This document shows, one piece after another, positions 7,709 through 24,182 of a stretch of DNA of 24,182 bases. How positions within the stretch are numbered: the stretch's first letter is position 1; each line of letters opens with the position of its first letter. The notes under the pieces are model-generated. The model did no database searches and was not told where the DNA came from. It saw nothing but the letters and a program-made list of their open reading frames with translations. Origin of the DNA: a virus. The DNA is taken from IMG/VR virus record IMGVR_UViG_3300032291_003829, positions 1 to 24,182 of that record; one strand, written 5' to 3'. The position numbers were made by a program, and so were the translations under genes.

Positions 7709-8056
7709 ATGAAAATCGACGTATTAAAAAAATTAATTAAAGAATCTGTACGAGAAGTGATTCAAGAAGAATTAAAAGATATTCTTTTAGAAGCAGTCCG
7801 TACTCCAAAAACTGTTGTTAGAGAATCATATTCACCTACAACTATTCCTGTTTCCCCATCCCAACCTACTTTTACTCCACCAACAATGGATACTAGAAAA
7901 GCATATATGGATGTTATGAATGAAACTGCTTTAAGTTTTACTTCACGTGATGCTCAAGCACCATTTAGACCACAAGTGAGTGATCCTGTAAATGGTAGTT
8001 TAGGTGCTGGTGAAGTAGGTATGGACCAAATTATGAATTTATTAAATAGTAAATAA
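7709..8056 (+). CDS. Small protein with an N-terminal amphipathic helix
   Basis: A 115-residue protein. The first 30 residues are one charged amphipathic helix (MKIDVLKKLIKESVREVIQE then ELKDILLEAV) containing several Leu/Ile-x-Glu steps (LIKE, VIQE, LLLE). The middle is a Pro/Thr/Ser-rich linker (about 38-62), and the end is a short helix, MDQIMNLLNS. The N-terminal helix resembles those at the starts of the kinase at 22718 and the nucleotidyltransferase at 23469. It has no enzyme motif. It lies between baseplate genes and overlaps gp25 by one base (TAATG), so it is likely a virion or assembly protein. I cannot name a family. Confidence 0.65.
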   Translation: MKIDVLKKLIKESVREVIQEELKDILLEAVRTPKTVVRESYSPTTIPVSPSQPTFTPPTMDTRKAYMDVMNETALSFTSRDAQAPFRPQVSDPVNGSLGAGEVGMDQIMNLLNSK

Positions 8057-19619: not shown

Positions 19620-20537
19620 ATGAGCATATTCAAGTCATTTATAACTTCAGACGTTATCGTTTCACCCTTTAAGGTAAACAAATCGTTTACTTTTCAAGGG
19701 AATGAACTTACTGGCTCAAATGTAGAAATTGATAGATATCTTGGAAAAAATATTACTTCATCTCTTTGGACCTCAGGCTCATACCCAACAGGAATTATTA
19801 ATATACAAGATCAAATTTTAGTGTATCGTTCAATTAGAGAACTTTATTACTCAAACTATCTTTTTGGAAGTAATGGATCCCCAGCAAATACAGCTTCATT
19901 TAATATAGATGGCACCATAACAGGCCCAGCATATGAACCTAATTATTATAATTATCTTTCAACTACATTAACTGCAAATAGATATTTCCCAACTGGATCG
20001 AATGAACAAATAGCAGTTATTTCTATCCCTTCAAATTTATATGGAGAGTACATTCAACCCGGAAGTATTAACATTCAATTTCCCTTTCTTCTTGCTTCAT
20101 TTTTAGATGATGGTAATGGAAATCTAATAGATAGTAGTACTAATCTTAAATACGGTGATATAATATATGAACATGGCTTAATTATATTTACAGGTCCTAA
20201 TTCACCATTATCTAATACCTTTATAAGTGGAATTGTTAGTTCAAATATGGAAATTACATTTACTAGTACACTTACAATATATGAATCTCAATATAAATGC
20301 ACTTTAAGAGAAAATGAATTTAACTTTTCACAAAATCCTTCAGTAGTTTCTGGTAGTATGAATAGTGGAATCATATATGATTTTGCAACAGGTTCTTATT
20401 TTTCACCTTATGTAACGACAGTAGGGCTTTATAATAATAATTACGAGTTAATTGCTGTAGGAAAACTTGCCCAACCTTTACCTACTTCAGCTGTTACAGA
20501 CACAACTATACTAGTCAATTTAGACATGTTATCATGA
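19620..20537 (+). CDS. Virion structural protein, tandem paralogue 2
   Basis: A 305-residue protein related to its left neighbour. The C-terminal module RENEFNFSQNPSVVSGS, then PYVTTVGLYNNNYELIAVGK, corresponds to the last 70 residues of paralogue 1, while the N-terminal region (SIFKSFITSDVIVSPFKVNK, followed by ITSSLWTSGSYPTG) is more divergent. Beta-rich with Gly-Ser turns; no catalytic motif. It starts 6 bases after the previous stop and overlaps the GIY-YIG gene by 4 bases (ATGA). It may occupy the same ring or collar position as its partner or be a specialised subunit; this cannot be told from the sequence. Confidence 0.7.
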   Translation: MSIFKSFITSDVIVSPFKVNKSFTFQGNELTGSNVEIDRYLGKNITSSLWTSGSYPTGIINIQDQILVYRSIRELYYSNYLFGSNGSPANTASFNIDGTITGPAYEPNYYNYLSTTLTANRYFPTGSNEQIAVISIPSNLYGEYIQPGSINIQFPFLLASFLDDGNGNLIDSSTNLKYGDIIYEHGLIIFTGPNSPLSNTFISGIVSSNMEITFTSTLTIYESQYKCTLRENEFNFSQNPSVVSGSMNSGIIYDFATGSYFSPYVTTVGLYNNNYELIAVGKLAQPLPTSAVTDTTILVNLDMLS

Positions 20538-20983
20538 ATTGGATTTATAAAAAAAATAAAATTGAGGATATCTCTCACTTTCCAAACAATACTTATGGTT
20601 TTATCTATAAGATAACTCACACTCTAACCAATAAATCTTATATTGGTAAAAAAGTACTTTACCATAACAAAAAAATAAAGTTAACTAAAAAAGATCTTGA
20701 GTTATATGAAGGTGTAGTTGGTAGAAGACCATCATATAAACTTGCAATAGCGGAATCTGATTGGAAAAAATATTGGGGATCAAATAAAACATTACTTGAA
20801 CTGTTAAAAACAGAACCAAAAGAAAATTTTAAACGTGAGATTTTAATTACGTGTCCAAACAAAAAACTTTTAACATACTATGAAACACAAACTTTGTTTG
20901 TTTATAGAGTGTTAGAGGAACCTGATCTATATTTCAACGACAACATTTTAGGTAAATTTTTTAGGAAAGACTTTGATATCTAA
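20534..20983 (+). CDS. GIY-YIG endonuclease-like protein (homing-endonuclease type)
   Basis: A 149-residue protein. YGFIYKITHTLTNKSYIGKK (21-40) is the GIY-x(10)-YIG core, with Gly22-Phe-Ile-Tyr25 and Tyr36-Ile-Gly38. SDWKKYWGSNKTLLELL (75-91) and FKREILITCPNKKLLTYYE (99-117) follow, with Glu117 in the usual place of the metal-binding glutamate. This pattern is that of phage GIY-YIG nucleases related to the T4 Seg proteins. It overlaps the structural gene by 4 bases instead of sitting alone in a gap, and lies before the primase gene. A free-standing homing endonuclease or a DNA-processing enzyme are both possible. It is clearly different from the T5orf172 type at 1235. Confidence 0.8.
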   Translation: MNWIYKKNKIEDISHFPNNTYGFIYKITHTLTNKSYIGKKVLYHNKKIKLTKKDLELYEGVVGRRPSYKLAIAESDWKKYWGSNKTLLELLKTEPKENFKREILITCPNKKLLTYYETQTLFVYRVLEEPDLYFNDNILGKFFRKDFDI

Positions 20984-22717: not shown

Positions 22718-23485
22718 ATGATAAGTTTAGTTCAATTGTTGAAGGAAATGCAAGATAGTCCCAAAGCTATATTTTTAGCAGGCTCCGCAGGTAGTGGTAA
22801 ATCTTACATAACCCGCGAATTATTACCTTCATCATTCCAAGTTATCAACTCAGACGATACATATAAAGCTCTACTTAAAGCGAGTGGAATTGGTTTAAAC
22901 CAAAAAAATTTTACCCCTGATCAATTATCTCAAGCTTCTAAATTACAGTCTCAAGCTAGAAAAACTACCCAAAATAAATTAGCTCAATCAATAGAAGATA
23001 AAAATAATATTATCATTGATGGGACTGGTGCGGCATCTGTACCTGTTTTAGAGAAAAAACAACAACTAGAAAATTTAGGGTATGAAACATTAATGATAAT
23101 GGTTTATGCTTCACCTATAACTTCCCTTGAACGTAATCAAAAACGTGAAAAAGAAGGTGAAAGAAGTTTAATGCCTGGAATTGTATTACGTACTTGGAGA
23201 GATGTAAATAAAAACATTGAAACCTACAAACGAGCATTTGGGAATAACTTTATTCTACTCAACAATAATCCAGAAGACGCTAAACAAGAATTTAATGCTG
23301 ATTTACTTGAACCATTCCTTCAAGCATCTACTGCTATAGGTAAACCTAAAACCCCTGAAGATCAAGCAAAATCAGATGCTAAAAAATCCCAATTAAATAA
23401 GGATATTGAATCTATGGTTAAACAATTACCTGAATTTGATTCAATGGATACAGCTAAAAATAAAATAGATGAATTCATTCGTTAA
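22718..23485 (+). CDS. P-loop kinase, zeta-toxin/AAA_33-like, with a capsid-targeting-like N-terminus
   Basis: A 255-residue protein. Walker A is GSAGSGKS (22-29); NSDD (44-47) and IIIDGTGA (98-105) follow, the DGT-x-G style of zeta-toxin, polynucleotide kinase and AAA_33 enzymes, which phosphorylate small molecules or nucleic-acid ends. Arg139, Arg143 and Arg149 could be the lid arginines. The C-terminus from about 205 is a charged helical tail. The first 10 residues, MISLVQLLKE, form a short helix ending in Leu-x-Glu and resemble T4 capsid-targeting sequences. It starts 11 bases after the preceding stop, without a Shine-Dalgarno, and overlaps the next gene by 17 bases. Which substrate it phosphorylates, and whether it is a toxin, is unknown. 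Confidence 0.8.
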   Translation: MISLVQLLKEMQDSPKAIFLAGSAGSGKSYITRELLPSSFQVINSDDTYKALLKASGIGLNQKNFTPDQLSQASKLQSQARKTTQNKLAQSIEDKNNIIIDGTGAASVPVLEKKQQLENLGYETLMIMVYASPITSLERNQKREKEGERSLMPGIVLRTWRDVNKNIETYKRAFGNNFILLNNNPEDAKQEFNADLLEPFLQASTAIGKPKTPEDQAKSDAKKSQLNKDIESMVKQLPEFDSMDTAKNKIDEFIR

Positions 23486-24182
23486 AGTACTTATACAGCC
23501 TATTTTAGAGGCAGAAGGGCAAAAAGGTATTGCTCTTGTTCCTGGTGGATTCAAACCACCTACAGTAGGCCATTTTGCATTGGTTGATGAAGTAGCAAAA
23601 AATCCTAACTTTGAAAAAGTAATCGTTTTAATTGGTCATAAAAACCGTGATGGTGTTTCTAAAGAGGAAAGTAAAGAAATATGGGATATTTACAAAAAAT
23701 ATTTACCATCTAACGTTGAAATTAAAACAGCAGAAAATTCATCCCCTATTTCGGATGTTGCTTCTATGATTAAAAACAACCCAGATACATTTTTCTACCC
23801 AGTAGTAGGTATTCGAGGTGAAATGGATTTAGGTGATTTAAAACGTTTTGATAGTTTAGAAGGAAAATATCCTAACTTTAAAACCATTGTTATCCGATCA
23901 GAAAGTAGTGATGATAGAGTTAGTGGTACAAATACACGTGCTGCTTTAATTGGTGGTGAAAAAGAAAGATTTCAATCATATTTACCTGCTCAACTTTCTC
24001 AAGAAGAAAAAAACAAAGTTTGGTCTATTTTAACTAAAACACCACTTGATGAAGTAAGATATGCTGAACCGAGTGAATATGATTATCCTCCATTAATCAA
24101 ATCACTTACTGAATTTATGTTAAATAAAGGCATGAACCTTCGTCCTTTACCTAAAGTAAAATTTGTAAATGATGATATTGAA
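23469..24182 (+). CDS. Nucleotidyltransferase (NMN adenylyl-/cytidylyltransferase fold), 3' end missing
   Basis: The frame opens at ATG 23469, 17 bases inside the kinase gene, and runs open to the window end (238 codons). PGGFKPPTVGHFALV (25-39) has the Thr-x-Gly-His motif (TVGH, 32-35), and SGTNTRAAL (152-160) is the second motif of the nucleotidyltransferase alpha/beta family that makes NAD, CoA or CDP-linked products. The first 17 residues, MNSFVKVLIQPILEAEG, form an amphipathic helix with Ile-Leu-Glu, like a capsid-targeting sequence. The chain continues past about residue 200 with a region I cannot place (NLRPLPKVKFVNDDIE); I have the impression that related phage proteins carry a further C-terminal domain there, but it is not in this window. 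The substrate is not deducible. It is probably paired with the kinase. Confidence 0.8.
   Translation, partial: MNSFVKVLIQPILEAEGQKGIALVPGGFKPPTVGHFALVDEVAKNPNFEKVIVLIGHKNRDGVSKEESKEIWDIYKKYLPSNVEIKTAENSSPISDVASMIKNNPDTFFYPVVGIRGEMDLGDLKRFDSLEGKYPNFKTIVIRSESSDDRVSGTNTRAALIGGEKERFQSYLPAQLSQEEKNKVWSILTKTPLDEVRYAEPSEYDYPPLIKSLTEFMLNKGMNLRPLPKVKFVNDDIE

Follow-up and report, generated by a model that had tools for sequence, protein, structure and literature searches.

Two neighbouring enzyme genes of an uncultured T4-type myovirus raise the question of why a predicted kinase and a nucleotidyltransferase (NTase) should both begin with a short leader ending in (L/I)-x-E. In T4, the first ten residues of the internal protein IPIII form a capsid-targeting sequence (CTS) that suffices for head targeting, with residues 4 and 7 serving targeting and residues 8 and 10 serving processing, and the prohead protease gp21 cleaves after L/I-x-E (PMC9026906). 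The original prediction proposed that the two enzymes carry such sequences and travel in the phage head, while allowing that the leaders might be chance.

The analyzed stretch, a 24-kb IMG/VR fragment of 24,182 nucleotides (the window), carries genes of the baseplate (gp25 among them) and tail, a SegE-like gene of the GIY-YIG type, a primase, and a PDDEXK exonuclease, followed by the kinase and the NTase. Head genes are absent from the window, which is itself a fragment; in large relatives, the region runs on into the terminase, protease, scaffold, and capsid genes. Flavobacterium phage immuto has a similar arrangement, with primase and exonuclease, one extra gene, an NMNAT-annotated relative, a nucleotidase, and the terminase further on. 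Because of this gene order, and since the sole kinase relative in genome_contigs lies within a Flavobacteriales MAG, a Bacteroidota host is likely. The family of the SegE-like endonuclease (positions 20534 to 20983, Pfam E 3.7e-27) is labelled NAD synthetase in PHROG 447, a label that looks wrong in many phage records.

The kinase and its leader

The kinase gene (positions 22718 to 23485, + strand) encodes 255 residues with a P-loop and a zeta-toxin/polynucleotide-kinase fold. The protein matches Pfam Zeta_toxin (6.6e-15), Foldseek returned zeta toxin and bacterial PNK, and a profile search of PDB sequences found zeta toxin at 2.4e-6; a kinase is predicted on these grounds. The start is well fixed, since the ATG lies 8 codons downstream of an in-frame stop with no in-frame ATG between them, and in several relatives the stop is only 1 to 4 codons upstream. 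Both reading frames and their leaders were confirmed where the original prediction had placed them.

The CTS-like decapeptide MISLVQLLKE (positions 22718 to 22747, + strand), with its putative cut after E10, sits at the true start and falls within the length of a T4-type CTS propeptide (about 7-20 residues). Its L4, L7, L8, and E10 coincide with the IPIII positions for targeting (4, 7) and processing (8, 10). When the leaders were aligned across 30 relatives of 39-84% identity, M1, I2, L4, L8, and E10 were invariant in all 30, and L7 was kept in at least 90%. The same five residues occurred without exception in 84 distinct kinase relatives, with positions 3, 5, 6, and 11-14 variable, and the consensus in the group is MI-x-L-x-x-(L/I)-L-x-E. 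The synonymous codons at invariant residues differ, with five Leu codons used at position 4, five at position 8, and three Ile codons at position 2, and selection thus appears to act on the amino acids of the leader rather than on its codons.

In the AlphaFold model of the kinase (mean pLDDT 89), residues 6-11 fall below 50. As modelled, the leader is a strongly conserved but poorly ordered segment outside the fold, the pattern expected of a signal that is read by another protein. The residue after the putative cut (P1') is bulky in the kinases, namely Met, Val, or Ile; in T4 it is usually Ala or Gly. Other leaders of the same kind begin further kinase relatives (a slash marks the putative cut here and below): MIPFILKE/G in HTVC008M, MKTFAELQE/G in Melnitz, MNFKEFCQLDE/A in Cronobacter S13, and MKMKFSEFVQLEE in Aeromonas CC2.

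The nucleotidyltransferase and its relatives in cyanophage virions

The NTase gene (positions 23469 to 24182, + strand) is 3'-truncated by the window end, so that the N-terminal part of a mononucleotide-adenylyltransferase-like protein is encoded, which has 561 aa in the contig L022. Its start is well fixed as well, because the ATG directly follows an in-frame stop. The leader MNSFVKVLIQPILE (positions 23469 to 23510, + strand) has 14 residues and reads MNSFVKVLIQPILE/AEG, with I-L-E at 12-14 and hence a putative cut after E14, before Ala, and not after E10. The (L/I)-x-E ending noticed earlier is therefore present in both enzymes, as L-K-E at 8-10 in the kinase and I-L-E at 12-14 in the NTase, but the latter lies outside the 10-residue register. 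The strict spacing of L/I at 8 and E at 10 does not hold in the subclade of the window NTase, where L8 is present, but followed by Q10 and P11, and a strict 10-residue rule was dropped for this leader. In deeper relatives (MNSLTKVLLEDVLEA), Glu occupies position 10 as well as position 14, and of 92 NTase relatives, 90 contain (L/I/V)xE in their first 22 residues. A clear leader is missing from the NTase homologues of L214, immuto, and HTVC008M.

The model of a 99% identical NTase relative is poor (mean pLDDT 65, residues 1-17 below 50), and its fold match, to NadD/PPAT with a moderate model, was for this reason used for the N-terminal domain only. The motifs PPTxGH and SGTxTR are invariant or nearly so in relatives, and Pfam CTP_transf_like matches below its cut-off. 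The protein is predicted to be a mononucleotide adenylyltransferase of the NadD/PPAT/NMNAT superfamily. Two candidate roles of the kinase and NTase together are equally compatible with the evidence: NAD salvage, which would pair the kinase with an NMNAT, and RNA repair, in which a PNK-like kinase and a HAD phosphatase would act alongside DUF6267 and the NTase.

Two relatives show further domains. The 99% relative (L022:2977-4659) continues past the point where the window ends with a region (residues about 264-322 and 464-507) that has an invariant HEMxHHxQN and a second, HExEH-like motif; this region weakly resembles the metallopeptidase families DUF6782 and M78, and an adenylyltransferase-peptidase fusion is possible from the sequence. 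In another contig (L268:4524 onward, + strand), a protein tagged MISFAQFLKE consists of DUF6267, with a ligase-like KYDGAPSIV motif, fused to an NTase domain; in cyanophages, these are separate adjacent genes.

Among cyanophage proteins, the cytidyltransferase T4-GC190 is a homologue of the NTase (blastp E 3e-9; profile-profile E 9e-8). Cytidylyltransferases of this kind were found by mass spectrometry in purified S-SM1 virions (PMC3037559), and also in virions of S-SZBM1 (PMC9146016) and S-CREM2 (PMC10665884), while an NMNAT was detected in S-SCSM1 virions and reported for S-CBWM1 (PMC9602691). The mass spectrometry papers themselves allow for incomplete purification or carry-over of abundant proteins (PMC10665884, PMC9602691). 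The N-termini of the virion-detected NTases are T4-type CTSs: MKKFSAFLNE/A in S-SM1, MRFRQFIIE/A in S-SZBM1, and MKNFSSFLTE/A in S-CREM2. Other S-CREM2 virion enzymes with such a sequence are a SAM hydrolase (MKDFDSFLEE) and an APH-like kinase (MKRFDAFLTE).

With motif positions taken from the T4 literature, a CTS motif was present in 6 of 26 S-CREM2 virion proteins versus 3 of 167 others (217 proteins, annotated structural ones excluded; p 2e-4, an optimistic value because some of these N-termini had been seen before the pattern was formalised and gp156, counted among the six, is a borderline case). The virion-detected, Cas9-like gp12 of the same phage (OR473000, 7704-10313) has FASFMAE/A at residues 19-25, and its annotated start may lie too far upstream. 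A literature search for cyanophages with the phrase capsid targeting sequence returned only a T4 review, and nothing was found on capsid targeting in combination with nucleotidyltransferase, virion, and marine phage. The CTSs on the cyanophage virion cytidylyltransferases have apparently gone unremarked so far.

The leader on unrelated proteins and the head genes of relatives

A position-specific matrix (PSSM) built from the kinase leader only was run over 271,335 windows from 10 contigs. The 14 best non-kinase windows were all located at N-termini, which hold 1.65% of the windows. Among 1129 proteins of relatives, a pattern of hydrophobic residues at 4, 7, and 8 followed by Glu peaked at E10 (43 proteins) and E12 (41 proteins), each against 3.0 expected, which is an enrichment of about 14-fold at E10. 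The tag was found on 53 of 578 families, compared to 9.7 expected, when families were clustered with a coverage filter against merging through low complexity. Immediately upstream of the kinase in the Flavobacteriales contig lies a gene for an unrelated protein of 177 aa that begins with exactly MISLVQLLKE. Over IMG/VR, two decapeptide patterns gave at least 250 matches with bodies in at least 57 families, and among the matches listed, 239 of 250 had no in-frame ATG upstream, so that the tag begins at the first start codon. Like a T4-type CTS, the kinase tag hence occurs on unrelated proteins.

Tags concentrate from the NTase to the terminase, protease, and capsid genes. Within the kinase-to-protease block, 7/24 proteins were tagged versus 8/200 outside, and the further counts were 11/29 versus 8/190, 7/31 versus 4/125, and 8/33 versus 2/149. 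Tagged proteins include HAD 5'-nucleotidase-like proteins, DUF6267-NTase fusions, and KptA/ART-like proteins (Pfam PTS_2-RNA, E 7e-4, below cut-off). One of the latter, a 128-aa protein tagged MIKLVDILNE (L388:3377-3406 and downstream, - strand), matches the RNA 2'-phosphotransferase KptA family below cut-off (E 7e-4); the fold of this family is like that of ADP-ribosyltransferases such as T4 Alt. Two others, tagged MISIYNILKE (immuto35A_177, L153:7393-7833) and MIKLIDILKE (G003:28928-29443), show a glycine-rich loop like that of protein kinases; a Pfam search with both proteins gave no match. In G001, G003, and immuto (L153), other N-terminal tags recur on unrelated proteins in the kinase-to-terminase block and beyond, namely KKxxLRxIIKEE..., (E)FKRMQxLAGIITES, and NFDLKKFLxENKL, which are possibly further head-targeting or core-binding types.

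Applied to the T4 proteome, the same pattern at E8-E12 selected 11 proteins, among them what we take from the T4 map and sequences to be ipII, ipIII, Alt, and gp24 (MAKINELLRE/S), as well as gene 61.1 (MKTFKEFIKE/D), named from its annotation. The 54-aa product of gene 61.1 (NC_000866, 18966-19130) has a near-perfect CTS and, judging by this N-terminus, may be an overlooked head protein.

Of 23 related contigs, 10 encode a gp21-type protease. Among the tag-bearing contigs that were checked, the protease is present in all 7 with a length of at least 80 kb and was not seen in 5 smaller fragments. The gp23 capsid protein is present in 8 of 9 relatives. In the scaffold proteins of relatives, [LI]xE[AGS] is 2.8 to 4.2 times commoner than composition predicts, and [VI]xE is conserved in their capsid protein, with varied P1', at what by eye corresponds to the cut site of T4 gp23. 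At the level of sequence motifs, scaffold and capsid are compatible with cleavage of the tags. In the contig of L216, the match to the gp21 protease (G028:C1:50206-50733) crosses one TAG, which is either a recoded stop or an error.

A proposed portable cargo tag and its counterparts in known phages

Taken together, we consider it likely that the leaders are a diverged, portable T4-type CTS by which a group of phages, probably of Bacteroidota, marks its cargo. In assembly, the amphipathic decapeptide would attach to the core of the prohead and so bring in the kinase together with the adenylyltransferase-like NTase. A gp21-type protease would then clip it after (L/I)-x-E, and the mature enzymes would stay in the DNA-filled head and be delivered into the next host along with the DNA. 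By comparison, the capsid-targeting reading of the original prediction is well supported, through the T4 positions, the portability of the tag, gp21 and gp23 in large relatives, and the virion NTase homologues, but the ten-residue form does not extend to the window NTase. Packaging of this particular pair, cleavage after the Glu, injection, and action early in infection are predictions. With somewhat less confidence, though still in favor, we propose that a large group of uncultured T4-related phages, probably of Bacteroidota, loads tens of proteins into the head by one portable tag for delivery at infection: kinases, adenylyltransferase-peptidase fusions, nucleotidases, KptA/ART-like, protein-kinase-like, and basic proteins.

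Alternatively, the leader could be a targeting helix for another site, such as the baseplate, neck, portal vertex, membrane, or replication compartment, and the enzymes would not be head cargo. A related helix indeed starts a 115-aa protein of the baseplate operon (MKIDVLKKLIKESVREVIQEELKDILLEA, positions 7709 to 8056, + strand). Its similar beginning had been pointed out before and holds up, although the helix is longer (KLIKE12, VIQE20, LLLE28), and it is kept in relatives and in phage immuto. The N-terminal helix of the terminase (MEERNLKQVIREEY) is tag-like too; the terminase is not head cargo, and the helix looks like a conserved part of the terminase itself, so resemblance alone is no proof. 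However, the T4 CTS is matched position by position, homologous NTases with T4-like CTSs are found in virions, and the tags cluster near the protease and capsid genes, which makes targeting to another site rather unlikely. It is less likely still that the leader recruits the enzymes to the head but stays uncut or is cut elsewhere. The separability of targeting and processing in T4 and the bulky P1' residues in the kinase would allow for this, whereas E10, shared by all 84 distinct kinase relatives, fits a processing position, and P1' is varied at the presumed capsid-protein site as well.

A helix that serves the structure or oligomerisation of each enzyme would explain the conservation inside each enzyme family, but it is disfavored to the point of being very improbable, as the leader is poorly ordered in the kinase model, some NTases do without it, and the decapeptide precedes at least 57 unrelated families and is identical on two adjoining unrelated genes. 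Chance, or a nucleotide-level translation signal, for which the location at the start codon might speak, was rejected in view of the positional invariance, the N-terminal PSSM matches, the E10 and E12 peaks, the number of tagged families, and the codon variety.

Normally, the proteins that a phage delivers with its DNA are known only where virion proteomics has been done on cultured phages. If the tag is a CTS, such cargo could be read from the sequences of uncultured phages, and T4-type CTSs would explain by what mechanism cyanophage virions come to contain NMNAT-like enzymes, kinases, and SAM hydrolase, whose presence there is puzzling. The question of how metabolic enzymes get into virions, and why, becomes directly testable, partly from existing mass spectra. 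The CTSs of T4 were already known, as was the occurrence of NMNAT-like enzymes in virions of cyanophages; within the literature searched, the link between the two and the diverged, widely shared tag in probable Bacteroidota phages are new.

Compared to known systems, the kinase tag is closest to the CTSs of T4 IPI, IPII, IPIII, and Alt and to the propeptide of gp24, which is cut by gp21. It shares with them about ten N-terminal residues, hydrophobic residues at 4 and 7, L/I at 8, E at 10, portability onto unrelated proteins, and a gp21-type protease in large relatives, and the gp24 sequence MAKINELLRE/S is very similar. Unlike the T4 CTS MKTYQEFIAE, the tag has the form MIxLxxLLxE, its P1' is not restricted to Ala/Gly, it occurs on far more proteins, and it is known here from sequence. 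The cyanophage cytidylyltransferase/NMNAT (T4-GC190) resembles the window NTase in homology, and it combines presence in virions by published mass spectrometry with a T4-like CTS; however, the cyanophage leaders are of the form MKxFxxFLxE, and the APH-like kinase of S-CREM2 has another fold than the window kinase. The prohead-protease propeptides of the giant phages phiKZ and SPN3US are alike in that head cargo is cut after x-x-E by a related protease and one N-terminus is common to diverged paralogues (PMC5694885), but these propeptides mostly exceed 100 residues and use the motif A-x-E.
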